Assembly (NCBI GenBank): GCA_016937015.1
Contig: JAFGWT010000495.1
Span: forward strand, 1 to 63,684
Origin: Deltaproteobacteria bacterium
Lineage (GTDB): Bacteria; Myxococcota_A; Polyangia; JAAYKL01
DNA: 63,684 bases
Direction: 5' to 3'
Positions 16,222-56,358 of the stretch are shown piece by piece (within the stretch, counting starts at the first letter, position 1; every line of letters starts with the position of its first letter). The notes below the pieces were generated by a model that was given only the letters and a program-made list of their open reading frames with translations, was not told where the DNA came from and did no database searches. Position numbers and translations under genes: made by a program.

Positions 16222-16833
16222 TTACAAATGACAGATATCGTACAGCGCATCCGACATGGCCCGATATCCGGCGTCGTTGGGATGAACCCCATCGTCAAAA
16301 TAAAGAGCCACAAGGTCGGTGGAACGCTCCCGAATATACGATGCCACGTCCGCACACAGGCAATCATATGCCATTGCTGTTGCCTTGAGGGCATCATAAT
16401 ACGGTGCAATATCCCGCTGCTGTTCCGGATACAGCAGGGGACCAGATGTGATCAGCAGCGGAACGGCATTGGCGCGAATCACCCGTCGGCAGATGGCGCC
16501 CACAGACGCCCTGTAGCTGTCAACAGAGACTCCGGCATACAAATCGTTGATGCCAAACTGCACAATCACCGCATCCGGGGAAATCTCCAGCAGACGACCA
16601 ATCCGGCCGGCGCCGCCGCCTGCCGTATCGCCACAGATGCCCGCGTTATGCCCGGTGATGGCAGTGCCGCAATAATCGGCGCGAAGCCTGGAAACAAACA
16701 GATCAAAATAGCTTACTGACGCTTCCCAGCCATAGGTCAGCGAATCACCCAGCCCCACAATCTGTATGGCATCGCCTCGTCGCAGCTTCTCCAGGATAGT
16801 TTTGAAATGACGGCTTTCGTGCGAATCAGACAT
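16222..16833 (-). CDS. SGNH/GDSL-family hydrolase
   Basis: These enzymes are esterases or lipases that use a Ser-His-Asp site. The 203-residue protein shows block I GLGDSLTYGW (Ser31), a Gly in the GHNAGICGDT block, block III FGINDLY and block V DDGVHPNDAGY with the Asp and His. There is no signal peptide, so it is probably cytoplasmic. I chose the ATG at 16833 because AAGGGGG lies 7 bases upstream; an ATG seven codons earlier (16854) has no such site. It is 35 bp downstream of argF and 15 bp upstream of the phosphatase. Its substrate is unknown; removal of acyl groups from sugars or small esters is possible. Confidence 0.85.
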   Translation of the reverse strand: MSDSHESRHFKTILEKLRRGDAIQIVGLGDSLTYGWEASVSYFDLFVSRLRADYCGTAITGHNAGICGDTAGGGAGRIGRLLEISPDAVIVQFGINDLYAGVSVDSYRASVGAICRRVIRANAVPLLITSGPLLYPEQQRDIAPYYDALKATAMAYDCLCADVASYIRERSTDLVALYFDDGVHPNDAGYRAMSDALYDICHL

Positions 16834-16868
16834 CTGTTCCCCCTTACAGCACATCGTTCAGGACATTT

Positions 16869-17783
16869 TTAACCTTCGAGCAGTTTGACCAGCACTGCTT
16901 TTTGCGCGTGAAGACGGTTTTCAGCTTCATCAAACACAACCGTGTTGGGCATATCCATCACCTCTGCAGTGATTTCCCGTCCCCGTTCAGCGGGCAGGCA
17001 ATGCATCACCAGAACATCTTTTTTGGCGCCATTCACCACATCCGCATTTACCTGAAACTGACGCAACTGCTCAATTTTGGTATCGATCTGATCTTTTGCA
17101 CCCATGGATGCCCACACATCCGTGTAAATCACATCGGAATCCCTGACCGCGTCCATCACATCGTGATGAACACTGACCGTTGAGATGCCACATGACTGGG
17201 TTTCCTTAAGGATATCCGCATCGGGCAATGTATCCGGTGATGTGCCGATGCTCAGATGCATGGGAATCCGCTGGGCCATCCGCATCCAGGAATTGGTCAT
17301 ATTGTTCCCATCTCCCAGATAGGTGACTTTTAAATTGTCCAGATTGCCGCGCTTTTCGAGAATGGTCTGCATATCGGCCATCAGTTGGCAGGGGTGCAGC
17401 AAATCCGTCAGCATATTGACCACTGGCACCTCTGAGTGATACGCCAGCTCCTCAACATCGCGATGAGAATAGGTCCGAATGCAGATAACGGAAAAATATC
17501 TGCTCATCACCTTGGCCACATCGTGAATGGTTTCGCGCTTGCCCAGTTCGATTTCCTGATTGGTGATGTATACACTGCTGCCGCCCAGCTGTTGAAATCC
17601 AACCTCGAAGGAACAACGGGTTCTAAGCGACTGCTTATGAAAAATCAGCGCGCCCACGCCCCCTTTGAGGACATTGCGATATTCTCCCCGTTTGGCTTTT
17701 TCCTTCATCTCGATGGCGAGATGGAGCGTATCGAGAACCTCATCCGAAGTAAAATCAGTAATAGTCAGAAAGTCTTTTTTCAT
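16869..17783 (-). CDS. argF: Ornithine carbamoyltransferase
   Basis: The enzyme joins carbamoyl phosphate and ornithine to give citrulline in arginine synthesis. The 304 residues contain the carbamoyl-phosphate loop as SLRTR (52-56; Leu in place of the more usual Thr), RTYSHRDVE, HPCQ, the ornithine-side SMG loop in DVWASMG and the HCLPA motif. The SMG loop and HCLP argue against the N-acetyl- or N-succinylornithine enzymes. The ATG at 17783 follows GGAGGGG, a strong ribosome site, so the 26 codons that could be added upstream are not used. No other arginine gene is nearby; it sits between a HEAT protein and the SGNH hydrolase. Confidence 0.93.
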   Translation of the reverse strand: MKKDFLTITDFTSDEVLDTLHLAIEMKEKAKRGEYRNVLKGGVGALIFHKQSLRTRCSFEVGFQQLGGSSVYITNQEIELGKRETIHDVAKVMSRYFSVICIRTYSHRDVEELAYHSEVPVVNMLTDLLHPCQLMADMQTILEKRGNLDNLKVTYLGDGNNMTNSWMRMAQRIPMHLSIGTSPDTLPDADILKETQSCGISTVSVHHDVMDAVRDSDVIYTDVWASMGAKDQIDTKIEQLRQFQVNADVVNGAKKDVLVMHCLPAERGREITAEVMDMPNTVVFDEAENRLHAQKAVLVKLLEG

Positions 17784-41201: not shown

Positions 41202-44200
41202 CTATTTCGGCACAGCTTCAATTCCGGCAATAGTTGTCGTGATCAGGAAATTGGAGTGTGTGGTATGGCGCTCAGCGTTGAAAATATCCATTCGATAGCT
41301 ATTCCCCGCCGTGAGCCCAAGATCATCCAAAGCAACTGTCGCATTTTCTTCACCATGAACGCCTCCCAAATCCATTACTCGATTTCCGTTGATGAACACC
41401 CACAAATCATCATCACCCGAAAATGCGAATGTCTGCCCTGCCTCATATCTGAACATGAAATGCATTTCGGTGGTGAAAAAGAAATTATGAGGATCACCGA
41501 CGCCGGGGGTACAGGACTCCCAAGGTTGGTCAGGATAATTGGGCGTCTCGGAATCGGCAAACAACTTCCCATCAATGGGGAAATACTGAAGCTGGGTGCA
41601 CCCGTAATCAAAGAACATATTGGGATCGTCATCAGCACCTGCAGTATAGACGCCACCGGTCTTAGGCTTCAGCGGAATACAGACTTCAGTTTCCTTATTC
41701 ACGGGCGTACCACTCGTATCTGTGTTGTACCATTGATTGAACGTTGTCGCGCTGGTGATGACCCGGTATCCCCCAGTACTGCACAATCCGTTTGTGGTGG
41801 CGTTGTACACGGGTTTGTAAGTTGTGGCATCGACAGTTGTATTCACAAGATTTGTGCAAACATTGAATGTATTGAGATTCATCTCAAAATCATCGTGACC
41901 TCCAGTAGTGCCTCTCTTCTTGAAGTCCCTGATGGTTGCAGTCAGTTCCACTTCATCCGTGGTGCCGTCGCAGTCGTTGTCCACGCCGTCCTCACTGTAG
42001 ATTTCGCATTGGCCGGGATGCGCGTCTGCATCGAAATCGTCGCAGTCGCCTGTATCCAATCCCACAGGAATCGAATCGGTATCGGCATAACCGCTTGCCA
42101 GATAGCCGTCGCCATCCATATCGATGCACCCGGCCTGACCCATACCCAGCGCGTTGTCGCTGCACCCATTTTGGCAAGCAACATCCGTTTTGCCGTAATC
42201 GCATACCCCGGCAAAGCAGGTGGAGCTGCCATCGTAGCGGCGAATGAAATTGCCCACGCATTCATCATCCGGAATTGCCAAATCGCAGTTGACCGCATCA
42301 CACAGATCTTCGGGGTCTGCCCCACGGCAGCAGCGGAAGCCCAGATTATCCATCCGGAACGCATCGGTATCGGTATCACCACCTTTGGCGCCCCACAGGT
42401 CAAACTTGCAGGTCAATCCATCGGACTGATCATTGTATGAACCGCCCCGAATCTGGTAAAGCCCGGAACCCATGACTGTGGATGTCCATTCCTCCACGTT
42501 GCCGGACATGTCGCGCACGTCTGTGGTGCCCCATTCCGCAATACAGCCAGCCAGAACCCCGGATGGCAATATCCCATTGTTGGGCGTGTAGTCAATGCCA
42601 TTACACGTCTGGCCATTATAAGTATCACTGTAAGGATAAAGTGTATCCGCCGCTCCCCCGAGTGAACACGCGGCCTGCCACTGTCCCGCCGAACACAGAT
42701 GCCATTGATCCGATGCGGAATCCGTGTCGGTGTATTCCAGTTGCTGACACGCGGTCTCCGCTTCCGCGCGGGTGACGCCCGTCCATGGCAGCTTATGATT
42801 TCTGGAACACGCCACACCATTTGCCTCCCCCGCATCGGTATCGATGGCGTCGTAACGACTCGCCTCATACGCGAAAATGTCAAAGTCCGCACTCGAGTCA
42901 GAATCGTAATCAATGGACACAATCACATCAGCGCAATCCATCGCTTCGTCGATGATGCCATCACAATCGTTATCGAGACCGTCCAGTATTTCGTTCGTCA
43001 CATACGTGGAAGGCGCACCCAGCTCATTTTCGCTGACATCGCAAACTCCGTCCGAATCATCGTCCTCACAGCACACAAACGGATCGGCCGGATTGGGTGT
43101 TGCCCTGCACGCCCAGGTGCCAGAGCGCACGCACTCGCCCTGCGCCTCGGCGGAGTTGTCGTCGTTGTCGCAGGCCTTCCTGGAAAAATCGCCATTTACA
43201 ACCCCTGGGCCCTCATCAATGCTCCCATCGCAGTCATTATCAATGCCGTCACACCGGGTTTCCTGAGCGATGGGTTCCCCATCCGTACCCAATTCAACAT
43301 ATGCGGTATCGTACGCGCATTCCCAACCATCGGTCCCACCGCAGGTCACTTTCGGTGCCGTACCGCCGGCCGCCGCGCAGGCACTGTTGCAGATATATGA
43401 AGGCGCATCATCGGTATCCAAATCGGCGTCAGCAACATCAATTGCGCCGTCGCAATCGTTGTCAATACCGTCGCACAGTTCCATCGCGCCGGCATCTTCA
43501 TCAACCACGCCATCGCAATCATCATCCACGCCCTGGGCTGAACCGCTCCAGCATTTATCACAATCCGGGTCCGTATCGCAGATGGCCGCCTGATATTCGC
43601 ACTCGCAGCCGTCTGAATCTGCAGAGTTGGCGTTGCGGTAGTTGCCATCACATCCGGTAATCACACAGACCCCCTGAGAGCAGGCTGTGGTGCTGACGTT
43701 GGGATACTTATCGGTATCCGCAAACATCGCATCACACGAATTGCCGCAGCCGTTACAGTTGTCCGCATCGGTAAGGAAATTAAAATCATCATCGGCCTCG
43801 CCGTCACAGTCGTTGTCGTATCCATCGCATCCCCAGACCCCGTCTTCCTCCCTGGCGTGAGTAAAGCATTCCGCATCCAGACAGTCCACCTCGCCACTGC
43901 TGTCCATGTCGTATCGGCACTGCCAGCCATTGCTACCGTCGCAGACAACCTGCGTTCGGCCCGGACAGGGATCGCATCCAAACGCGGTGGGATCCGAATC
44001 CGTATCGGTCAGAGGGAAATCCTCGTCAATGCTGCCATCACCATCGTTGTCGAGACCGTCACAGACTTCGACGTAGTCAACGGTTTCATCGCAATACATG
44101 GTGCCCGTGGAAGAATTGCATCGCATGATGCCATCAGCCACATTATCGCTGTCATCAGCCCGGTCGCACACCGTTTCAAAATCCGGCTCGGCTGAGCCAT

Positions 44201-47200
44201 CCGGCGTTGATGCGTTGCAGTCGTTATCGATGCCATCGCATGGGTCATCGGCAGCCGGCGCGGTGGCGCCCACACATTTTAAAACACGGTTGGGACTGTC
44301 GCATTCCCAGTTGCCGTCTCCGCACTGACCGCAGCGCAACTGCAACGCGGTAAAACCAGCCAGGGCATCTTCATCCGTGACCCCATCGCAGTCATTGTCG
44401 AGTCCATCACAGCGATCGCAGTGGTCGGAATCCGCACACCCGGGCGGTACATCACCAGCGCACTGGTCCACTTCATCACACGAATAGCGCCCCACTTCAC
44501 AAATGCCTTCACTGTAGGGATCGCAATTCCCCCCCGGCGCATTGCACACCACACCACTCGATCCGCCACACTGCACCGTGGCCACTTCATCCACACTGCC
44601 ATCGCAGTCATCGTCAATACCGTTGCAGGCGATTTCAACGTCCGGCGCGACAAAGTCCTCACAGGTGATTGTCCCGCCAATGCACTGGGTCACATACGAG
44701 GCACATGCCCCCAAACCACAGGCCACCCCAAGCCTGGTCCCGTCATTCACTTCAATATTGTTCCCGTTACCGTCTGCGGCGGCCAACTCATCGGTCAGAC
44801 CATCGCAGTCGTTATCGAGCCCATCACATCGTTCGGCGGCCGGACTCACATCACCCACGCAGCCGTCGTCGTCTGTGTCATAAACCGCCGGTCCAGGCAG
44901 GCCGTCAGCAGTCGCCACGGCCGCACACAGTGCCAAACCGGTCTGACAGACCCCCAGATCCGGGTCATCGCCTGGGGCGCCGCCACAGGAGATGCGTAAC
45001 GCTTCATCGACCTGTCCGTTGCAGTTGTTGTCCAGACCGTCACATACTTCGGTTTCCGGCAACTGGTAACCCGTGCACTCCAGGTTCCCTCCCACACAAC
45101 TCATCACGCCAGCTGCACAGATTCCACTACAGGTATATGTCCCAACGTCATTTTTTGCACATCCAGCCGACGTTTCGGGATAACAGGCCACCCCTCCCCC
45201 CGGATTGCCTTCGTCTTTTTGACCATCACAGTCATTATCGAGATTGTCACAGATCTCCGCTGCCGCAGAGTCGCCGTCGCAATAGTATTCACAGCCGTCT
45301 GAATCGCTGCCATTCAGATTCCACCAGCGCTCGTCACAGGCGCCAAGGACGCATTGTCCGTCACTGCAAGATGATGAGCCGTGATTGAACAGACACAGAT
45401 GACCGCAGTAACCACAGTTTTTCTCATCGTTTAAGAAGTCAACATCTTCATCAAACGAAAAATCGCAGTCATTATCCACCGGTGTATAGTTGTCATTGGC
45501 CGGGTCCACCGACGTGGCAAGGCCGTCACACTTGTCGCCGTTGTCCTCCGGGTCCACAGTGGGCTGACAGAAATGCTCGCACCCGTCGCTTAAATCGCCG
45601 TTCTGGTCGTAATAATAATTCTGACAGGCGGCCAACACACATTTCCCTGCGTCGCAACCGGCCGTTGCATTAACCACGGCGCAGGCTGCCCCGCAGCCAC
45701 CGCAGTTCCGCGGGCTGGTTTGCACGTTGACACAATACTGATACCCCACATCGTTTTGACAGCAGGTCTCATCCGAATCACAGGTGGCACAATCCACGCC
45801 GGTATCATCAGGGTCCGTTCCATCGCTGTCGGTTCCGGATGCCCCCGAAGATGAACTGTCCGAGCCATTCAGATTATCCGTGTTGGTATCACTGTCAGAC
45901 GCCCCAGTAGAAGAGGAATCATTGTCCGACCCGGTATTTGTCGAGTCACTGCCGCCGGCTGATGGTTTGGTTGTATCATTCTCGTTGGCCAGACTGTAGG
46001 GTTCCACCTGACATCCAACCAGGATGAAGAGCAGCCCCAGCAACAGGCTTCCCCGGATTACCGCCAGCAAACGCCTCGAAGACAATCTGAAGCGACTGAG
46101 ACGCAGGAAAACCAGCAACGCCGCGATGGCCACCAGCCACCAGCTCATGCCGCTGTTTGTCTTAGCCCCAGGCGCCGTGGCGCACAGACAACCGCCCATA
46201 CCGGTTGCAAGCACGTTGTCCAATCCGCCATATTCTTTTTTCTCACTGACACTGTCGGTATCGTCACCGTTGTTCTGTGGCAATGCTGAAGTATCCGCAA
46301 CCTCTGTAGCCGTCTCTGAATCGCTGTCCTCAATGGTCACATCGGTGTCTCCTGTTTGCGTGCCACCATTTTGCGCATTGGGATCGTAACACGACCCCTT
46401 GATGCAGACTGTGCCGTTGGGACATTCCAGATTCATGCATTCATCGGGAATGCACACGCCGCTTTCGCAACGCTCGTGGAATTCACACACAACGCCCTTG
46501 CACGGGTTTGTCAGCGTCTGGTCACACAGTCCGGTCTCCGCATTGCAGAGCACACCTGATTTGCAGACAACACCGGCACACGGATCATTGACGCACACAC
46601 CGTCCTCACAGCCCTGACCTTCCGGACAAACCACATTGGCGCAGGTGCCAACACAGGTACCGGAGGCCCCGCAGTATTCATCTTCGCCACATGTCACCCC
46701 TGCACAGGGATCGGTCACACATTCGTAACATGTGGTCTGAGTCGCCGGATCGCACATCGCAATCGCCTGACAGCTTTGCCCCGCCTCACATCCCGTCACC
46801 ATGCAACCTTCACTGTCCGCATGACAGCGCCCACCATCCGCCACAACGCAAGTCTGTCCCTCGGCGCAAACCTTACCGTAGCAGACGTCCACACACATCT
46901 GCGCCACGGGATCGCACGAGCAGGGTGGTTCGAATCCCTGGTCGGGCGTGCAATAATAATCGTTGTATATGCAGGGCAACGCATCATCGCTGTTTTTATC
47001 ACACACCGTGGCCATGCAGATTCGATAACCGTCGAATGTAACGCACGACTTGGAAGGCGGGCACACAAACTCACCTTCATTGCAGGGTTCCGCACACTCG
47101 CCCTCTATACAGATGGACCCCTCCAGCGGACATTCAACTTCCTCATCCTCATCCACCAAACCATCGCAATCGTTGTCTTTACCGTCACACACCTCATCAG

Positions 47201-50200
47201 TGGGCCCAGGGGCGGTGCATTCCCAGCCACAGTCCCTGCACTCGTACTGCCCCAGTGCACACTCGCCAATGCCATCGGGATACGCTGCCTGCAGCGCGGC
47301 ATCACTCATCCAGTTGGGCGCCTTGCTGCACACATCCCCTGGCGGAATTTCCTCATCCACCTGTCCATCGCAGTCGTCATCGACGCAATTGCAGGACTCT
47401 TCGGTGCCAAAAGTGCCGCCAATGCAAACCAGTCCCCACTCCTGCGTCGTCGAATTCAGCACGCACTGCATCAGTCCCGGTTCACAGATACCCAACGACT
47501 GACCACAGGTTTCTCCGGCGCCAGCCAAATCCTCATCCGCACTGCCATCGCAATCGTTATCACGGCCATCGCAGACCTCCAGCTGGGACACTTCGGGGGA
47601 TACGCAATCCCCAGTGGCACGCCATACTTCAGCATCGCAACAATGCAGCGCGGTCTCAATTAACTCCGAATCCACTTCGTCCACACACTGCTGAATACCC
47701 TCAGGACATTCACCCACCGCCACCTGACAAATCACGTCTTCCATATCATTGAAATCTTCATCAATGAGACCATCACAGTCATTGTCTTTTCCGTCACACA
47801 CTTCAGCCACAGGTCCCACAGACCCGTAACACTGGGGCGTCATCTCGCCATCGAGACAATATCTCAGTCCCATTTCGCATTCCCCCGCTGCCGGATTACC
47901 CGACGCACATGGTGATTCATCATCAACAGGTGTCACGCAGCCACCGCACGGCACCGGATCAATTCCATCGTCTGCGACACCGTTACAGTTTTCATCGAGA
48001 CCGTTGCAGATTTCCACTTCAGGCGCACGGCCCACACAAACCAGTTCATACGACCCGATTTTTCCCAGCTGGATACTGTCGTTTCGCACACATTCATACA
48101 CCCCATCGCAACTGCCACAGCTGGCGCCCACCAGTGAATTTTCTGCGTTCTCTTCCAGATCAGCTGCCTCATCGCCGTCATTCAGTCCATCACAGTCATC
48201 ATCGAGACCATTACATAGCTCCGCCGTGGGCCCCTGAAATCCAACGCAATCTCCCCAGGATGCAGCATCCTCCCCCGAAGTGGCTTCGCTGCAATACTGA
48301 ATACCCGTTTTGCAAATACCCAGGGTAATCGACGCATCCGGCCATTGCGCCGCGTCAATCGATCCGCAAACATTTGAGATGCCTTCATCTACCAGTCCAT
48401 TGCAGTTATCGTCTTCATTGTTGCAGACGCTCCCCTCGGCAACCGGCGCGGTATATCCCGAACAGGACACCACACCATCAAGGGAACAGGCGTAGTCGCC
48501 CAATTCACAATTTCCAACGCAGATGCCATCGGCGCATCCCGACAGACCTTCCGGATAGCATTTGCCCAGGTTGAGATCTTCATCCGTCTGGCCGTCACAA
48601 TCATCGTCAAGACCGTTGCATTCCTCGGGCTGCGGCCCCACATCACCCACGCACTCCGAGCTGTATCCGGGGATTCCGGTATTGGGGTCGGTCACACAGG
48701 CGCGAACTCCCGTCTGACAAAGACCAGCGTTTGGATTTGACTGAACGCAGGTGGAAAACTCGGTATCCACGCCGTACTCACACCCGCCACAACTCATGGT
48801 CAATCCCTCGTCCACACTGCCATCGCAGTCGTCGTCCAGTCCGTTACATGTTTCAACGTCGGGATCAACAATGAGTGGTTCACTCCCGTCCGGAACACAG
48901 ACAAATGTGCCGGCATCACCGGGCATACTGCACTGACTGATGTCGTCCGCGCAGCACTGTTTTGTCCCTGCCACGCAAATGGATTTTGCATTATCAAACT
49001 TTGTTACCCATCCGCTGGCCCCGGCAGGACACACTGTGGTGCCGGTGGGAACATCATCATCAATCGCGTTGTCGCAGTCATCGTCGAGACCATTGCAGGT
49101 ATTATCCGTCTTTGGTGTTACCATGCCCGCACAACCGAGCACACCGCCAACGCAGGTTCGTTGCCCTGCTTCACATTCGCCAATACATCCGCTGCCATTG
49201 GCGTTGCAGCCGTTGGTCGAAATGGCATCTGAATCGATGTAACAGGCATCGCCTTTCTCGGGATATGTTTCATCTTCAAGGCCATCACAGTCATTGTCCA
49301 GCCCATCGCACTCTTCCGCGCTGCCTTCCGTATCATTACACACCCATTCCCCATTGGTGCATACTGAAGTGCCGGGCGAACACACCCCCACACTGGAGCC
49401 ACAGGGCGACGTATCCCTCAGCGCCTGCCCATCCGTATCTTCATCAATCTGGCCGTCACAATCGTCATCAACACTGTTGCAGACTTCGTCATCCGGGCCA
49501 ATGGCGCCAACGCAAACCGGTCCGGTTCCCGGCACACACTGGGTCGTCCCTGGTTCGCAAATACCTTCAGTATCTCCGCATGAAATGCCAAGATCTGAGT
49601 CAATCGCATTGGTCCAGCCCCCCGTCGGCGTTTCGTCAATTCGGCCATCGCAGTTGTTGTCCACCCCGTCGCAGTCCATTTCCTCCACATACTCACATGA
49701 ATCTTTGTTCTGAGCGCCCTGACCATCCCAGTACGTGCAGTATTTGGTGAAACCTTCGTCGATAACATCATCGCAATCATTATCCACGCCATCGCAAACC
49801 TCTGTGACGATCGCTGAAGAAATGATTTCAGCCAAAACAGACGACAGTGTCTCCTTACTGTCCGCAAAATAGGCATGGCCACCGTCTGTTGCCAAAGTGC
49901 CACAATAGCCGGCAGATGATGAATGCGGTACTCTATTAAACGACTGACTTGAATCGTAGTGACATCCCCCCACGTCAGCCATGGCATCCAATACCGGTGA
50001 CTGTGCCGCAAGGCCAATAACCCAGGTCTCAACGTCTAAATCGGCGTACAAATCGTATACGCCGTTTTTGGTCTTGGCCATGGCGACTTCATCATATCCC
50101 AGCACCGGATTGATTTTGCCATCAAAGTCCCCGTCCGCGAGAATCAGCAAATAATAAGGACGGCAATCTGACTTCGAATCCAGTGACTTAACGGTTGACA

Positions 50201-50963
50201 GATATGTATATGCCGCATCAACCGCCTCTCCAAGGGGTGTGCCGCCATCCGCACGCAGTTCCTGCTCGGTGGTATCTCCGGCGAAGGGGCTCTCAAAACT
50301 GTTGGGGCTGGTCATGGCGGTGCGGTCAGAATTGTACTCCATGTGGTTCATCCACGATTTGATCTCAAGAATGGAGGTGCCAAATTCCTCAATCAAATAC
50401 TCTCTGGTATCCAAAAAATGGTCGTCATAATTATACAGCGTTACCGGGTCGATAAACACGGGCGCACCATCCAGTTCAATAACATACTCGCCGACCTCAT
50501 CTGACGCCTGCCCTCCGAGTCCGCTGTATCTGAGCACATCCTTCTGACCCGCTTCCTGATTGTACGAATACCATTTGGCGGTGGTACCACCGGATTGAAG
50601 CTGAGAATAGAGCTGCGGAAATTTCATCAACGCGAAATCAATATCACCTGTGGAATTCAACATTTGCGTCATTGCTTCTTTGGCAATGTGCATTCGGGAA
50701 TCGCCGCTGCCTGGACAGCAGTAACGGTCGCCGGCATCCACGGCGGATGTCCACTCATCGTTGCTGCCATCGCCACGGGTTTTATTGCCATCCACGTCAA
50801 ATGTCATACTGCCGGACGTGTCAAAAAGAATCAGAATACGCGGCTTGACCGCGGTTTGACTGAGCGCATCCCGGCTGGTCATGGTCATCATTCCCGCAAT
50901 CACCGTTGCGAGCACGACCTGCATTGTTGCAAAATTTCTTACATTTGACATGATTCGTGACAT
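41202..50963 (-). CDS. Giant VWA/MopE-repeat surface protein, apparently two proteins fused in frame
   Basis: The 3253-residue frame starts at the ATG 50963 (AAGGGG 7 bases upstream). Residues 1-36 are a signal peptide and 42-330 a von Willebrand A domain with the metal site DTSGSM (48-53). Fourteen MopE-type repeats (CDGxDNDCDGxxDE, probable calcium loops) and an EGF-like Cys-rich region follow. Residues 1592-1631 look like a MYXO-CTERM tail (CLC, WW, hydrophobic helix, Arg cluster). The frame then runs into a lipoprotein signal (LVGC, Cys1651), a Ser/Asp/Thr linker, about fourteen more repeats, an FGE-sulfatase-like domain (about 2680-2885) without the catalytic cysteine pair, and a C-terminal fibro-slime domain (about 3010-3253; GDDDLWVFINGNRVMDLGGV). 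Confidence 0.8.
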   Translation of the reverse strand: MSRIMSNVRNFATMQVVLATVIAGMMTMTSRDALSQTAVKPRILILFDTSGSMTFDVDGNKTRGDGSNDEWTSAVDAGDRYCCPGSGDSRMHIAKEAMTQMLNSTGDIDFALMKFPQLYSQLQSGGTTAKWYSYNQEAGQKDVLRYSGLGGQASDEVGEYVIELDGAPVFIDPVTLYNYDDHFLDTREYLIEEFGTSILEIKSWMNHMEYNSDRTAMTSPNSFESPFAGDTTEQELRADGGTPLGEAVDAAYTYLSTVKSLDSKSDCRPYYLLILADGDFDGKINPVLGYDEVAMAKTKNGVYDLYADLDVETWVIGLAAQSPVLDAMADVGGCHYDSSQSFNRVPHSSSAGYCGTLATDGGHAYFADSKETLSSVLAEIISSAIVTEVCDGVDNDCDDVIDEGFTKYCTYWDGQGAQNKDSCEYVEEMDCDGVDNNCDGRIDETPTGGWTNAIDSDLGISCGDTEGICEPGTTQCVPGTGPVCVGAIGPDDEVCNSVDDDCDGQIDEDTDGQALRDTSPCGSSVGVCSPGTSVCTNGEWVCNDTEGSAEECDGLDNDCDGLEDETYPEKGDACYIDSDAISTNGCNANGSGCIGECEAGQRTCVGGVLGCAGMVTPKTDNTCNGLDDDCDNAIDDDVPTGTTVCPAGASGWVTKFDNAKSICVAGTKQCCADDISQCSMPGDAGTFVCVPDGSEPLIVDPDVETCNGLDDDCDGSVDEGLTMSCGGCEYGVDTEFSTCVQSNPNAGLCQTGVRACVTDPNTGIPGYSSECVGDVGPQPEECNGLDDDCDGQTDEDLNLGKCYPEGLSGCADGICVGNCELGDYACSLDGVVSCSGYTAPVAEGSVCNNEDDNCNGLVDEGISNVCGSIDAAQWPDASITLGICKTGIQYCSEATSGEDAASWGDCVGFQGPTAELCNGLDDDCDGLNDGDEAADLEENAENSLVGASCGSCDGVYECVRNDSIQLGKIGSYELVCVGRAPEVEICNGLDENCNGVADDGIDPVPCGGCVTPVDDESPCASGNPAAGECEMGLRYCLDGEMTPQCYGSVGPVAEVCDGKDNDCDGLIDEDFNDMEDVICQVAVGECPEGIQQCVDEVDSELIETALHCCDAEVWRATGDCVSPEVSQLEVCDGRDNDCDGSADEDLAGAGETCGQSLGICEPGLMQCVLNSTTQEWGLVCIGGTFGTEESCNCVDDDCDGQVDEEIPPGDVCSKAPNWMSDAALQAAYPDGIGECALGQYECRDCGWECTAPGPTDEVCDGKDNDCDGLVDEDEEVECPLEGSICIEGECAEPCNEGEFVCPPSKSCVTFDGYRICMATVCDKNSDDALPCIYNDYYCTPDQGFEPPCSCDPVAQMCVDVCYGKVCAEGQTCVVADGGRCHADSEGCMVTGCEAGQSCQAIAMCDPATQTTCYECVTDPCAGVTCGEDEYCGASGTCVGTCANVVCPEGQGCEDGVCVNDPCAGVVCKSGVLCNAETGLCDQTLTNPCKGVVCEFHERCESGVCIPDECMNLECPNGTVCIKGSCYDPNAQNGGTQTGDTDVTIEDSDSETATEVADTSALPQNNGDDTDSVSEKKEYGGLDNVLATGMGGCLCATAPGAKTNSGMSWWLVAIAALLVFLRLSRFRLSSRRLLAVIRGSLLLGLLFILVGCQVEPYSLANENDTTKPSAGGSDSTNTGSDNDSSSTGASDSDTNTDNLNGSDSSSSGASGTDSDGTDPDDTGVDCATCDSDETCCQNDVGYQYCVNVQTSPRNCGGCGAACAVVNATAGCDAGKCVLAACQNYYYDQNGDLSDGCEHFCQPTVDPEDNGDKCDGLATSVDPANDNYTPVDNDCDFSFDEDVDFLNDEKNCGYCGHLCLFNHGSSSCSDGQCVLGACDERWWNLNGSDSDGCEYYCDGDSAAAEICDNLDNDCDGQKDEGNPGGGVACYPETSAGCAKNDVGTYTCSGICAAGVMSCVGGNLECTGYQLPETEVCDGLDNNCNGQVDEALRISCGGAPGDDPDLGVCQTGLALCAAVATADGLPGPAVYDTDDDGCVGDVSPAAERCDGLDNDCDGLTDELAAADGNGNNIEVNDGTRLGVACGLGACASYVTQCIGGTITCEDFVAPDVEIACNGIDDDCDGSVDEVATVQCGGSSGVVCNAPGGNCDPYSEGICEVGRYSCDEVDQCAGDVPPGCADSDHCDRCDGLDNDCDGVTDEDALAGFTALQLRCGQCGDGNWECDSPNRVLKCVGATAPAADDPCDGIDNDCNASTPDGSAEPDFETVCDRADDSDNVADGIMRCNSSTGTMYCDETVDYVEVCDGLDNDGDGSIDEDFPLTDTDSDPTAFGCDPCPGRTQVVCDGSNGWQCRYDMDSSGEVDCLDAECFTHAREEDGVWGCDGYDNDCDGEADDDFNFLTDADNCNGCGNSCDAMFADTDKYPNVSTTACSQGVCVITGCDGNYRNANSADSDGCECEYQAAICDTDPDCDKCWSGSAQGVDDDCDGVVDEDAGAMELCDGIDNDCDGAIDVADADLDTDDAPSYICNSACAAAGGTAPKVTCGGTDGWECAYDTAYVELGTDGEPIAQETRCDGIDNDCDGSIDEGPGVVNGDFSRKACDNDDNSAEAQGECVRSGTWACRATPNPADPFVCCEDDDSDGVCDVSENELGAPSTYVTNEILDGLDNDCDGIIDEAMDCADVIVSIDYDSDSSADFDIFAYEASRYDAIDTDAGEANGVACSRNHKLPWTGVTRAEAETACQQLEYTDTDSASDQWHLCSAGQWQAACSLGGAADTLYPYSDTYNGQTCNGIDYTPNNGILPSGVLAGCIAEWGTTDVRDMSGNVEEWTSTVMGSGLYQIRGGSYNDQSDGLTCKFDLWGAKGGDTDTDAFRMDNLGFRCCRGADPEDLCDAVNCDLAIPDDECVGNFIRRYDGSSTCFAGVCDYGKTDVACQNGCSDNALGMGQAGCIDMDGDGYLASGYADTDSIPVGLDTGDCDDFDADAHPGQCEIYSEDGVDNDCDGTTDEVELTATIRDFKKRGTTGGHDDFEMNLNTFNVCTNLVNTTVDATTYKPVYNATTNGLCSTGGYRVITSATTFNQWYNTDTSGTPVNKETEVCIPLKPKTGGVYTAGADDDPNMFFDYGCTQLQYFPIDGKLFADSETPNYPDQPWESCTPGVGDPHNFFFTTEMHFMFRYEAGQTFAFSGDDDLWVFINGNRVMDLGGVHGEENATVALDDLGLTAGNSYRMDIFNAERHTTHSNFLITTTIAGIEAVPK
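41950..45490 (-). repeat. MopE-type metal-binding repeats, second half
   Basis: About fourteen copies of CDGxDNDCDGxxDE, spaced 60-150 residues apart with cysteine-containing spacers. The DxDxDG-like acid pattern suggests calcium binding. Some copies are degenerate, such as CDGIDNDCNASTPD. Confidence 0.75.
46011..46196 (-). other. Junction: MYXO-CTERM-like tail running into a lipoprotein signal peptide
   Basis: In one unbroken frame: GGCLCATAPG (Cys at 46190 and 46184), WW plus a hydrophobic helix, then LRLSRFRLSSRR, then a second hydrophobic helix ending LVGC (Cys codon 46013-46011). A TTG at 46085 would begin a canonical lipoprotein signal with the n-region SSRR. No stop codon separates the two signals; the +1 frame has a TAA just after the Arg cluster. 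Confidence 0.75.
47140..49805 (-). repeat. MopE-type metal-binding repeats, first half
   Basis: About fourteen copies of C(D/N)GxD(N/D)DCDGxxDE, from near residue 387 to residue 1274. Spacers carry one to three cysteine pairs. Confidence 0.75.
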
Positions 50964-51343: not shown

Positions 51344-52039
51344 TTACAGGTCTATTTCCTGCTGACCGAGGATGAGGGCCACTTTTTGATTGTCGTTGTA
51401 TTTGCGAATGCTTTCCAGCAGGTCTTTGGGTTCCTGGCCTTTTTTCAGCGTCACTGAGTAAATGACCTCCAGTAGCACCCCGGCGCGCACGGTTTCGACG
51501 GATATGAGCCGGTAATCCTCAAGGTATTTGCGGAACGGTTCCTCAAGCACCTGTTCGTACGGACGGTCAACCGGCATCTGCACCCGCAACACGCGCTCGT
51601 TAATGACTTTGGCGAAGAGGTTGAATTTGAACATGACAAACACAAATACGCTCATCAGCAGTGTGGCAAACACCGCCAGCATGTAAAACCGGGTGCCCAC
51701 GGCCATGCCCACAGCCATGGCCATGAAAATAAAACCGATGTCCCGGGTTTCCTTCATGGCGTTTCTGAACCGCACGATAGATAAGGCGCCCACCAGTGCG
51801 AACGCTCTGGCGATGTTCGAGCCCACTATCAGCATAATGAGGGCGATGGTGGTGCCCATGATCACCAGGGTATGCACGTACGTTTGCGAATACGAAATGC
51901 CCCGATGCGTTATCTTGTACATGTATCCCACCACCATGGCGAGCACGAAACTGAGTCCCATCACCAGAAACATATCGCCAAGGGTGAATGTCCCCGTTAA
52001 ATCACCAAATCGTTCCACATCTTTTAGAAGTTCATCCAT
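51344..52039 (-). CDS. DUF4956 family membrane protein
   Basis: The 231-residue protein has about four TM helices in the first 140 residues (for example MFLVMGLSFVLAMVVGYMY and IALIMLIVGSNIARAFALVGAL), the conserved ALSIVRFRNAMKETRDIGFIF segment, and a cytoplasmic C-terminal domain (about 150-231). Genes of this family often lie beside VTC-domain and CotH genes, as here, but their function is unknown; a role in moving or anchoring the polymer made by the VTC protein is an inference. GGAAGGA precedes the ATG. It is the last gene of the operon before a terminator-like hairpin. Confidence 0.85.
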   Translation of the reverse strand: MDELLKDVERFGDLTGTFTLGDMFLVMGLSFVLAMVVGYMYKITHRGISYSQTYVHTLVIMGTTIALIMLIVGSNIARAFALVGALSIVRFRNAMKETRDIGFIFMAMAVGMAVGTRFYMLAVFATLLMSVFVFVMFKFNLFAKVINERVLRVQMPVDRPYEQVLEEPFRKYLEDYRLISVETVRAGVLLEVIYSVTLKKGQEPKDLLESIRKYNDNQKVALILGQQEIDL

Positions 52040-52127
52040 TGCTTTTTCCTTCCAATTCAGCCCTCAATCCAGACTGTTTGTTCATTCATTTTTATTCGCG
52101 CCTGCAAACTTTGCTACCGACAGCGCG

Positions 52128-52898
52128 TTAGCTGTTTTTCAGTTCGGGAATCGGTGACATGGCCAGGTGAAGCATGTCCTTCATCCTGTCCGTCGCGATT
52201 CCGGCGCAGTACTTACTCACTCTGCGCAATTCACAATTATGTCTGCCCAACATGGTGGTGACCCACTCGGGTATGCGGTCGTTGGCCTTCACTTCGAGGA
52301 TGGTCCACTCTCCTGGGAGAATCAGATAGTTATTGGTGTTGGCGTTGACAAGCAGCTCGTGACAGCGATAGCTGACATTGGTATCGAACGTGATGCGCAG
52401 CCCTGGCTCATACTGGGATCCCATGAACGCCTGACGATGATAAGCGGTAATGCACGCAGGCTGCAATTGCAACCGGTGCACCATAAACTGCACCTCATTG
52501 ACCACCTGCTCATCCAGGTCATCCAACTCGAAATCCGGCGCCATAACCCCGGTGGTACACAGGGTGTGCGCCATATCGAGGGGCATTTTAACCCGCTTTT
52601 TCTGCACCGTACGATTGATGCGCTGCTTAATTTCGACCATTCCGCTGGTGGTATTCTCAATGGGCGTGGCTGGATAAATCCGAAGTCGCAGCTTGCGGCG
52701 AAACTTAATGCCTTCAATCTTATTCCAGTAACACTCCAAATCCGGACTGTCGTAGTACAGGCTGACCAGGGGATAGCCCGCCATACCGCTGTACGGGTCC
52801 GGTTGCGCGTTTTTCAAAAGATCCTCAATCAGCCGGTCTCTGATCTCTATTGGAATAATGTACTTCAGCTCGTACCTGTTAAATCGTCGAATTACCAT
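52128..52898 (-). CDS. VTC-domain (polyphosphate polymerase) protein
   Basis: The VTC domain, a triphosphate-tunnel fold, makes polyphosphate from ATP in yeast. The 256-residue protein has the basic and acidic tunnel residues: RYELKYII (8-15), FRRKLRLRIYP, MVEIKQRINRTVQKKRV, ILEVKANDRIP, and a late SKY. It has no membrane segment or SPX domain, so it is cytoplasmic. Its ATG overlaps the stop of the upstream gene by one base (TAATG), showing translational coupling. With DUF4956 and CotH it forms a known but unexplained bacterial grouping; the upstream phosphate-selective-type porin strengthens a phosphate link. Confidence 0.88.
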   Translation of the reverse strand: MVIRRFNRYELKYIIPIEIRDRLIEDLLKNAQPDPYSGMAGYPLVSLYYDSPDLECYWNKIEGIKFRRKLRLRIYPATPIENTTSGMVEIKQRINRTVQKKRVKMPLDMAHTLCTTGVMAPDFELDDLDEQVVNEVQFMVHRLQLQPACITAYHRQAFMGSQYEPGLRITFDTNVSYRCHELLVNANTNNYLILPGEWTILEVKANDRIPEWVTTMLGRHNCELRRVSKYCAGIATDRMKDMLHLAMSPIPELKNS

Positions 52899-53440
52899 TA
52901 CTCACAAAACCTGACTTTTACATCGACATTGCCAATGTCACCGTTGCTGTTTTTTCGAACCACTTCGATAAATTCGGGCATCAACACCCCTTTGGGCATC
53001 CACACTGTCTTGCGACCACTCTCCTTCAGCGTCACATCCTTTTGCCACGTCCGCCCCCTGACTGCGAACACAATGGGGAACTCCGATTCCTCACCGCTGA
53101 CGTCCAGAACAAAATTGCCGCACGTTCCGGATTTGTCCTTTCGAATTATCAGCAGCGCATCAGTGAGCGAGAGGCCATCGGTATTGGCGCTCATCAGGTC
53201 AATGCCCCGCTCGCCGCTCAATTCCTTCAGGTACCTGGGATAGTCTTCAAACACATTATAAAAGCGGCGTTTCTCTGAATCGGACAACTGAACCACGCGA
53301 CCGGTTTTGAGCCCTTCGTCCAATTCCCAGATTTCATCGAGCCTGGGGCTGGAAAATCCCCAGATGAAAAAAATCAGCACCACAAGCGTCGTTGCACACA
53401 GCAGCCAGAATCCGGGGGTTGGTTTGAACAGGCCTTTCAT
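52898..53440 (-). CDS. Membrane-anchored protein of unknown function in the CotH/VTC operon
   Basis: The 180-residue protein has one N-terminal TM helix (about 10-29, FWLLCATTLVVLIFFIWG) and a periplasmic domain of mixed strands. No family is recognised. It overlaps the CotH gene by four bases at its start and the VTC gene by one base at its stop, so it is tightly coupled to both and probably works with them, perhaps as a linker between the periplasmic CotH protein and the cytoplasmic VTC protein (inference). Confidence 0.7.
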   Translation of the reverse strand: MKGLFKPTPGFWLLCATTLVVLIFFIWGFSSPRLDEIWELDEGLKTGRVVQLSDSEKRRFYNVFEDYPRYLKELSGERGIDLMSANTDGLSLTDALLIIRKDKSGTCGNFVLDVSGEESEFPIVFAVRGRTWQKDVTLKESGRKTVWMPKGVLMPEFIEVVRKNSNGDIGNVDVKVRFCE

Positions 53441-56358
53441 TTGGCCACCTCCTGCGCCGAAAGCCAGGTATCAATTTCCTCAGGACCGGCAATATTGACA
53501 ACATCTGCAAAAAAGTGTCGAAGAGGCCGGTCGTCCACAAATCCGTAGCGAACAGTCCCATCATCCAGCCTGTTGCGTTTCCGATCCGACCTCTCCACAA
53601 GGGTATCGGCGCCAACAATGTAAAGTGTGTTGGCGGTAATTTCCACATCCCCTCCATACAGACCGGTGGCTTTCCCCACTCGAACGCCGGTGCGGTTTTT
53701 CATTAGCAACCCGGTGCCAATATCAATATGTGACGCATCCTTTCCAAAGACCCCGTTGGTGGCAAAGGCCACCAGAAAGTCCGTTGCCGCAAGATGGCTG
53801 CTTTCGCCGGCCGAGATACCATGCTGTTTGCACCCGAGAATCACGCTATCGCTCAGAGACACTTTTGAATCCATTAAATCAAGACCGTCATCTCCGGCGT
53901 TTAACACGTAGGCCCGGGTCAGATTCGCCGTTGAGAACTCGATGTCAATGGCATCCATTGTAACGTTCGTCACGGCAATATCCGCCACCTGCAGATTGGT
54001 GACATATGCCCCGTGAAAGGCGTCACCCAGTCCGTGATTGTTGCGAATCCGACACCCGCTGACGGTAATGTTGCTGGTATCGTGGATATTCAGCATGGAT
54101 GAGTACACAACCGGCTGCCCCGTGATATTGCTGCCGTGCTCAAGTTCGAAATGCGAGAGCACCGACCCGGCAGTGCCTTTGCCCTGCAGTGCCACGCCTC
54201 CCCAGGGTTTCTTCCCGCTCGGTTTAAAGACCACTGGATTGCCCGCGCGTCCCTCTATTATCACTTTCCCTTTAAATATCAGCGATGCGCCTGCCCCCAT
54301 TTTAAAGGTTGTTCCCGCCATTACAGTCACGTGTGTATATTCGTCGAACACCCTGATTTTGGCAATCTCAACAACCCCGGGTCCCAGCTGTACCGTCTCA
54401 ATCTGCGGCGGGATGACCGCACCGGGATGGGGAGTCAGTACGCCAATATCAAAGGTGGGTGCCGCTGTTTCCGGCGGATACGATTTGGGCATGCTGGCCA
54501 GCAGGTCCAGTCCGGCTTTTTGGGCGCGAATTCGATTTTGGGTAATTTCGTGAGTGGCAAACACTTCAATATTGCCCGGACGGCAACTGGACTCAAGCGT
54601 GAGTGCATACCGGGTGGGTACCGGAGCCACCATAATCCGGTTTAAATCCGCGTCGCCCTTGGTGCGTTCCGCCAGCTGAACCGCCGCATAGAGTGTTTCC
54701 CGGGATGTAAAAGTCGCTGACGTGGCATTCTCCGCATTGGCAATCATCCTGTCCCCCTGAACGACCCGCCACAGCGGCATCTGACAGTCTTTGTCGAAGG
54801 ACACCGAAATCTCTTCGAGCACCACGCCCGTTTCTCCAGCCACAATAACGTTGAGGGGGGTCAATACCGTCATACCGGTTCCCTCGCCTTCGGGCTCAGG
54901 CCCACTCACCGCCAGCCCCTCGGATGCAACCGCCTGTGCCGTCGCCACATCCGAAACAGTGTGATTGGGCGGCACAACGGTTATGGGGTCGCCCCATTGG
55001 ACATAAAACTCGCTTTTTTGCAGTTGATTGGTCAAAAACGCGATACGACGCTCGTACTGCTGCATCTCGGCTTCCAGCACCAGTTCAAGGCGGTCCATAT
55101 CCATGGGACGCAACATTTTAAACGCGAATTCGTTTACTTTTGGCAATTGCTTGTAAGCTGAAAAAAGTCTGTCATTGGCCAAATCGCTGGCAATGCGCTT
55201 GACTGCCTTCTGGGCTTTTTTGCGGATGGTATTGGCGCTGGCGTCCCCGTGAAGCAGATCCCACACCGCCCGATTTCTTCGCGCGCGATATTCCGGAATC
55301 ATTTTCAGCCGAATGGTAATGGGATTTTCCACGCGATTAATCACGCCATCGTGTTTGAAACCACGCAGGTCCCAGGCCACAGGTACCCAGCTGCCGACAT
55401 ATGGATCGAAATACAGTTTTTGATTTTCACGAAATCCGTGCTGCTCAATGCCAAAGACCACATCAATCGCCTCGAATGTGGCGAAGGCGTCAAAATTGAT
55501 GTGACTGTGAGCGTACCTTGCAAAATCCCGGTAACTGGATTGAGTAATATGATGCAGAAATTCCTTCAGTCGCTGAATGTCATGTTTGTTCGAATGCAGC
55601 CTCGATGTCACCTTCTTCCAGTGCGTCGTGTCATTCCAGAGCGCCATGGTCTCTGCCTTGCCATCGAGATTGCCCGAGAAAAAATCTGAATACATGGTTC
55701 GGTTTTTACGAAAAAGGGTGTCGTCGGGCTGGGCCTGGAAATGAAACACACCGAGATCTTCGCCATTGAGCACCACGCGGACAAATTCATACGGGGTGAC
55801 CATCACACCGTTTTCGGCAGCGGTGTCGGTGACCACTTTCTGGCCCACCACAAACGGAGTGACCTGATTAATCAGATTGAAGACCTGATGCCCTCGATAC
55901 GGTTTATCGTCAATGACTCTGATTTTCATCGTTTTCTTGCGGGAAAGGTAGTGCCAGTGTCGACTGCCGCGCAACCGGAGTTCCACTTTGTAGGTTTTGT
56001 TTTCTGATTTCGCAAACAGTTTGGCCGGGACGTACGGCCTGTCCTCGGACTTGCCGGCCCCGCCATAAAGATCAATCATACTGCCATGGCCCACTTCGAG
56101 AATCAGCGTCTCAATCTTTGACTTGTCCACATCCCCCTGTGACATAATCCATCGCAAATCCCGATGAAGAATGTCGTACAAATGAATGTGAAAAAACTCC
56201 AGATTCCCTGGCGCCTTTTCGTCCACTGCCATCTCGTAGCTATGCAGCTTAAGTATGGCGCTGCTGGAATACCAGATACACAAAAATATCCCTGGAAGGG
56301 CCAAAATCACGGCGGACATCAGCCGAATGCGAATTAGTCGTTTCCATATAAAGTGCAT
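53437..56358 (-). CDS. CotH-kinase-type protein with C-terminal beta-helix
   Basis: CotH proteins are secreted atypical kinases that phosphorylate serines of spore-coat or surface proteins. This 973-residue protein has an N-terminal anchor (about 10-32), the CotH domain (about 110-460; KVELRLRGSRHWHYLSRKK, VVLNGEDLGVFHF, DTLFRKN) and a C-terminal right-handed beta-helix (about 700-920) of short repeated strands, suited to carbohydrate or surface binding. The usual WDxD active-site motif reads WDLR (Trp329-Arg332), so activity is uncertain. GGAAGGA precedes the ATG. It lies 41 bp after the porin gene and overlaps the next gene by four bases. Confidence 0.82.
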   Translation of the reverse strand: MHFIWKRLIRIRLMSAVILALPGIFLCIWYSSSAILKLHSYEMAVDEKAPGNLEFFHIHLYDILHRDLRWIMSQGDVDKSKIETLILEVGHGSMIDLYGGAGKSEDRPYVPAKLFAKSENKTYKVELRLRGSRHWHYLSRKKTMKIRVIDDKPYRGHQVFNLINQVTPFVVGQKVVTDTAAENGVMVTPYEFVRVVLNGEDLGVFHFQAQPDDTLFRKNRTMYSDFFSGNLDGKAETMALWNDTTHWKKVTSRLHSNKHDIQRLKEFLHHITQSSYRDFARYAHSHINFDAFATFEAIDVVFGIEQHGFRENQKLYFDPYVGSWVPVAWDLRGFKHDGVINRVENPITIRLKMIPEYRARRNRAVWDLLHGDASANTIRKKAQKAVKRIASDLANDRLFSAYKQLPKVNEFAFKMLRPMDMDRLELVLEAEMQQYERRIAFLTNQLQKSEFYVQWGDPITVVPPNHTVSDVATAQAVASEGLAVSGPEPEGEGTGMTVLTPLNVIVAGETGVVLEEISVSFDKDCQMPLWRVVQGDRMIANAENATSATFTSRETLYAAVQLAERTKGDADLNRIMVAPVPTRYALTLESSCRPGNIEVFATHEITQNRIRAQKAGLDLLASMPKSYPPETAAPTFDIGVLTPHPGAVIPPQIETVQLGPGVVEIAKIRVFDEYTHVTVMAGTTFKMGAGASLIFKGKVIIEGRAGNPVVFKPSGKKPWGGVALQGKGTAGSVLSHFELEHGSNITGQPVVYSSMLNIHDTSNITVSGCRIRNNHGLGDAFHGAYVTNLQVADIAVTNVTMDAIDIEFSTANLTRAYVLNAGDDGLDLMDSKVSLSDSVILGCKQHGISAGESSHLAATDFLVAFATNGVFGKDASHIDIGTGLLMKNRTGVRVGKATGLYGGDVEITANTLYIVGADTLVERSDRKRNRLDDGTVRYGFVDDRPLRHFFADVVNIAGPEEIDTWLSAQEVAK

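Follow-up and report, generated by a model that had tools for sequence, protein, structure and literature searches.

An internal MYXO-CTERM tail joined head to tail with a lipoprotein signal in a predicted surface polyprotein of the class Polyangia

Internal sorting signals in described systems

Polyproteins are rare in bacteria. One of them is FbcH, the cytochrome b/c1 precursor of Bradyrhizobium, which is cut at an internal signal peptide that contains a type I site. Two further systems provide the sorting signals considered here. The bacterial lipoprotein pathway, which depends on Lgt and LspA, uses a lipobox of the form [L/V/A]x[G/A]C that follows a positive n-region and an h-region. The MYXO-CTERM/myxosortase system (TIGR03901; MrtX, MXAN_2755) uses a Cys motif, a TM helix and an Arg cluster, and MrtX cleaves MYXO-CTERM in a manner that depends on its cysteines, in E. 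coli as well (PMC11980579). Internal MYXO-CTERM has been described as rare, and the example from Myxococcus xanthus is MXAN_5598, in which MYXO-CTERM precedes an OM beta-barrel/OmpA protein, an arrangement thought to derive from a fusion and for which processing of the N-terminal part has been proposed (PMC11980579). In the traA-traB pair of M. xanthus, a MYXO-CTERM gene overlaps the gene for its envelope partner by four bases (PMC3325183).

We analyzed a window of 63,684 nucleotides, the whole of contig JAFGWT010000495.1 (assembly GCA_016937015.1), which contains an ORF related to each of these systems. Like known MYXO-CTERM proteins, the ORF has the Cys motif, TM helix and Arg cluster, passes the curated model and occurs in a genome with a myxosortase-core protease. 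In contrast to them, its signal sits midway along a 3253-aa chain, and another signal peptide follows directly. The lipobox with its n- and h-regions and the enzymes of the lipoprotein pathway are likewise present, but here the lipoprotein signal lies behind 1600 residues and a stop-transfer helix. As with FbcH, a second product would be freed at an internal export signal of one ORF; FbcH lacks a C-terminal sorting signal, whereas here the predicted cuts fall at two different sorting signals. The locus shares with MXAN_5598 a single ORF with internal MYXO-CTERM, but the partner is a lipobox lipoprotein rather than a barrel/OmpA protein, and it belongs to a class-wide family with split counterparts. 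Those split counterparts resemble traA-traB in their overlap, although the traA-traB partner, TraB, is OmpA-like, is not a MopE lipoprotein and is unfused. The literature that we searched, from which subscription papers were mostly absent, offered nothing relevant on internal lipoboxes or bacterial lipoprotein polyproteins. New here are a class-wide family in which MYXO-CTERM is paired head to tail with a lipoprotein signal, its homologous two-gene counterparts and the repeated interchange between fused and split forms.

The fused reading frame and its junction

The host assembly is a 6.43 Mb MAG of 564 contigs, and the fused ORF lies on contig C275. A single minus-strand frame runs without interruption from 51032 down to its stop at 41202; the longest reading starts at TTG 51008 and encodes 3268 aa. 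Starting from ATG 50963, the ORF (41202..50963) encodes 3253 aa composed of halves of 1626 and 1627 residues, exactly the sizes given by the initial annotation, which had placed the second start at TTG 46085. We rejected the near-equal sizes as evidence of duplication: the halves of homologues range from 818/907 to 1867/1507, and the match in size is, by this comparison, a coincidence. Adjoining the gene on the minus strand (51344-56358) is a cluster encoding DUF4956, VTC-domain, unknown and CotH-kinase/beta-helix proteins.

The first half begins with a predicted Sec signal peptide, MSRIMSNVRNFATMQVVLATVIAGMMTMTSRDALSQ (50856..50963, minus strand as for all features below; hydropathy peak 1.69). 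A VWA-like region follows (49803..50846), which is called by its MIDAS-type DTSGSM motif at 50822 alone, as a Pfam search gave VWA_2 only at E=0.15. Beyond it are 14 MopE-type CDGxDNDCD motifs (47163..49796; Cu-binding_MopE, 1.5e-40), and this half also has a Cys-rich stalk. The second half carries 10 such motifs by a strict count of the core (43227..45251; Cu-binding_MopE, 1.9e-35), an FGE-sulfatase-like domain (42324..42815; PF03781, 1.3e-7) and a fibro-slime/PA14 domain (41229..41489; TIGR02148, 2e-29; PF07691). An earlier estimate of about fourteen MopE repeats per half thus holds for the first half and overstates the second.

Between the halves, the frame reads GGCLCATAPGAKTNSG-MSWWLVAIAALLVFLRL-SRFRLSSRR-LLAVIRGSLLLGLLFILVG-C-QVEPY. 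The internal MYXO-CTERM (46092..46196) scores 21.9 bits against TIGR03901, for which the curated cut-off is 20, and comprises the motif GGCLC (46196-46182), a first helix identified by hydropathy (TM1, 46148-46098) and the start of the Arg cluster. Because about 1600 further residues follow in frame, it is an internal variant of a C-terminal signal. The Arg cluster RLSRFRLSSRR (46071..46103) serves at once as the cytoplasmic end of MYXO-CTERM and as the n-region of the lipoprotein signal. The second helix (TM2, LLAVIRGSLLLGLLFILVG, 46014..46070) is the h-region of that signal and is homologous to the N-terminal signal of separate second genes; the signal is internal in the fused ORF and N-terminal only in the split orthologues. 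It ends in the lipobox LVGC (46011..46022; Cys codon 46013-46011), after which QVEPY leads into the Ser/Thr/Asp-rich tether of the second half (45770..46010). The frame, these coordinates and the TIGR03901 match bear out the initial reading of a single frame with Cys-x-Cys, TM and Arg cluster and then an n-region, a hydrophobic core and LVGC.

A search with a 320-residue junction query recovered the same stop-free join in a paralogue on another contig and at seven further loci in four relatives. The set that we aligned comprises 13 loci in six genomes (G000, G002, G004, G007, G009 and G010); apart from the window and the own-genome paralogue, it holds 11 loci in five relatives, all without a stop at the junction. 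The stop-free junction thereby spans three loci in another species of the genus and four other genera of the family. Invariant across the 13 junctions are an L, a G, GG-C-x-C, the lipobox Cys and a Pro four residues past that Cys, and the lipobox Cys was retained in 13/13 in a MAFFT alignment built without our lipobox-placing script. The loop and TM2 changed fast and the stretch past the lipobox was mostly better kept in the four pairs compared, which are too few to rely on. Fast sequence change is a trait of signal peptides, and of neutral spacers too.

Fused and two-gene loci across the class

Using a profile of the 13 family junctions, we searched 318 genomes of the class and found 69 fused loci in 44 genomes of 15 families once unrelated fusions were removed. 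Five more among the remaining matches (L203, L205, L206, L208 and L224) bring the total to about 74 in at least 44 genomes. The carriers include G315, a complete genome on a single contig, and the fused frames reach 4218 residues. A search of the phylum gave few matches outside the class. The family counts exclude L129 and L131, two fused loci whose lipobox is not followed by the VxP(F/Y) tail, as well as L112, L133, L138 and L175, which are unrelated or miscalled; these six remain in the raw set of 73 fused and 24 split loci. L129 (G017:C398) and L131 (G316:C2), in which MYXO-CTERM and an internal lipobox share an ORF, are possibly independent fusions with other lipoproteins.

The full junctions that we examined take the form (V/L)LATGGGGCxC - TM - RRRR - TM - (G/A)C-x-V-D-P-(F/Y)-C, with variations. 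The lipobox Cys is present in 71/71 aligned fused junctions, a count drawn with a search profile and a lipobox-placing script that favor lipobox-bearing loci and under-sample fused loci without one. In the same alignment, Gly occupies the -1 position in 92% and Pro the fifth place of CxVDP in 93%, and the loops contain 415 Arg/Lys against 14 Asp/Glu. The -1 residue was G, A or S in 73/73 loci of the raw fused set, for which the site finder demanded G, A, S or N. At least one Cys of the upstream motif is kept in 69/69 fused loci checked. One CxC cysteine was lost in L100, L122, L084, L117, L107, L108, L128 and others, and both were lost in none of the 69; such loci may show which Cys matters to myxosortase. 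The junction is constant, but the first halves of fused and split loci differ in architecture: some carry a VWA-like motif at the N-terminus, others have one near residue 900, and others combine a YISQVDG-type N-terminus with DUF4114. The sole fused locus found without a lipobox, L220 (G312:C296:500-3800), has an internal MYXO-CTERM-like tail and an internal type I-like signal, LLLGAGALVAPSAADAQ, past which it reads by eye as an OM barrel and then OmpA-type sequence. On this reading, L220 has the arrangement of MXAN_5598, in a different family of the class.

The same two proteins are also encoded by separate genes. We found 22 split loci in 19 genomes and about 11 more (about 33 in all), in which the MYXO-CTERM gene stops after the Arg cluster and the second gene starts there. 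In 19 of the 22, stop and start overlap by 4 bases (ATGA or GTGA, with one called TTGA). The second gene opens with a lipoprotein signal, typically ending (G/S)C-x-V-D-P-Y-C, that is homologous to the internal segment of the fused ORFs. In L135 of G315, for example, the first product ends ...GGGGCLC...RRRVR before its stop codon and the second begins MSRFVSSAQRLALLVVLSSC-TVEPYCLVC. TIGR03901 was placed internally in the fused L097 and L118 and C-terminally in the split L140. Besides the window's ORF, where it lies in the second half, an FGE-like domain occurs in the stand-alone second genes of L140 (a weak match) and L149. A stop between the halves, for which the initial annotation had proposed comparing orthologous loci, is thus found in relatives as a pair of overlapping genes, which supports its suggestion that a lost stop between tandem genes yields a giant polyprotein with an internal processing site. 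At L133 (G213:C79), the MYXO-CTERM gene ends in TAG and the lipoprotein gene starts 9 bases on in the same frame, such that loss of a single stop would fuse both genes.

We also examined how the two forms are distributed on a second-half tree of 88 rows; L105 and L114 are missing from this tree but from no other analysis. By parsimony, the fused/split label changed at least 12 times, a rough figure from a quick tree with many weak forks and some long rows, and 4 of the changes are forced by strongly supported branches. Fused L103 and split L147, from one genus, are sisters at full support, and fused and split loci occur together in each of six genomes (G315, G316, G158, G182, G188 and G202). 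The forms appear to have interchanged repeatedly, with at least 4 changes forced, which suggests that the two states are equivalent. Sequence distances upstream of the junction correlate with those downstream of it at 0.76, whereas the highest value in 1000 shuffles was 0.156, and the halves are therefore inherited together.

Proposed processing and its alternatives

The genome encodes candidates for each processing step. The myxosortase-core protein L177 scores 123 bits against NF040914 (Mrt_core; cut-off 100), passing that domain cut-off only and falling under the equivalog cut-offs of MrtX, MrtC and MrtP. LspA is matched twice and Lgt four times, one of the Lgt matches being partial. Two LspA genes are adjacent with an Lgt gene near them (G000:C26:9367-10604 and 16356-17093) and three further Lgt matches lie elsewhere, which is above the usual number of lipoprotein enzymes. 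MYXO-CTERM tails also occur at true C-termini in this genome (L068 and L071). Type II secretion is the surface route proposed for MYXO-CTERM proteins, and the best GspE-like match in the genome reached 627.1 bits against a cut-off of 630.25.

We consider it probable that the ORF is a genuine polyprotein whose hairpin is excised by myxosortase and LspA, which would leave equal amounts (1:1) of two surface proteins, each with a lipid anchor. The ribosome would make one chain, and the N-terminal signal peptide would initiate export of the VWA-like/MopE half. Transfer would then stop at the MYXO-CTERM helix, with the Arg cluster remaining in the cytoplasm, and restart at the second helix, such that the MopE/FGE/fibro-slime half is exported as well. 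The predicted topology is out, helix, positive loop, helix, out, with the lipobox at the outer face. A myxosortase of the CPBP family would cut after the upstream Cys motif, and Lgt and LspA would lipidate and cut at the internal lipobox; both are putative steps on a substrate with folded domains on either side. A hairpin of about 50-60 residues would be discarded, leaving the first protein anchored C-terminally and the second by its N-terminal lipid-Cys. The fused ORF would then be the fused version of a two-gene operon in which a MYXO-CTERM gene overlaps a lipoprotein gene. We infer both cleavages, the lipidation, the final location and any joint working of the products from sequence. The join is real and conserved in the class, and many relatives make the same two proteins from overlapping genes; it is therefore very probable that cleavage turns the single chain into two lipid-anchored proteins.

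The main rival is that the chain stays uncut, as a single bipartite protein with a two-helix membrane hairpin and both large halves outside. A stable hairpin would agree with the hydropathy and the positive loop, and MYXO-CTERM proteins can remain partly uncleaved when MrtX is absent (PMC11980579). However, a plain hairpin needs neither a lipobox Cys with Gly at -1 nor an upstream Cys motif, and both are kept. The initial annotation had raised the prospect that homologues conserve the pair as an ordinary double TM; instead, they retain the cysteines of the sorting motif and of the lipobox, and in split orthologues, which make two separate proteins, the homologous helix is an N-terminal lipoprotein signal. 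The repeated interchange of fused and split forms, with the equivalence that it suggests, and the presence of Lgt, LspA and a myxosortase-type protease also argue against an uncut hairpin. We regard this alternative as unlikely, as it leaves the kept cysteines and the split orthologues unexplained.

Another possibility is that, beside a read-through product, ribosomes initiate internally and produce the second half as an ordinary lipoprotein. Split orthologues start at this place, and the window's loop contains TTG codons, of which only TTG 46070 has a 4-base Shine-Dalgarno match. We rejected TTG 46085 as a start, since it has no Shine-Dalgarno and few fused loops offer a start that has one. 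In the raw set, with its six excluded loci, a Shine-Dalgarno of at least 4 bases precedes the second start in 21/24 split loci, whereas an in-frame start preceded by such a site occurs in only 8/73 fused loops and 39/73 lack a start codon altogether. These counts suggest that the internal start and its ribosome site have largely disappeared from fused forms, and that the second half in fused loci is probably not translated separately. Furthermore, there is no stop, hence any ribosome that translates the first half goes on to make the second. Internal initiation is accordingly a clearly less probable account than an uncut hairpin.

We also considered whether the genes were fused recently and by accident, with no consequence for function. 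Split forms exist, so the fusion must have arisen by mutation, but fusion is universal among the 13 loci of the window's family, which group together in the tree with strong support, and both cysteine sites are kept while sequence identity across the family junction falls to about 30%, which makes an accident very improbable. A base missing from the assembly at the junction, which the initial annotation had offered as its other explanation and which would fit a MAG in so many contigs and the TAA that it had correctly seen in the +1 frame right behind the Arg cluster (46060-46058), is already refuted for the family by the stop-free junctions of the paralogue G000:C387, G002 (three loci), G004, G007, G009 and G010 and of about 60 further fused loci, G315 included.

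Taken together, our results favor the excised-hairpin polyprotein for the ORF in the window. With somewhat less confidence, we think it likely that the class as a whole has a 1:1 route to two proteins from one ORF, with an excisable hairpin and two intramembrane proteases, that is freely interchangeable with an operon of 4-base overlap. For annotators, a sorting signal in mid-protein is not necessarily a frameshift. In these bacteria, a C-terminal sorting signal runs head to tail into a lipoprotein signal and the pair has natural two-gene counterparts, sometimes in the same genome, and the family lets one test whether Lgt and LspA use an internal lipobox, whether Lgt also lipidates the MYXO-CTERM Cys and whether the products function together.
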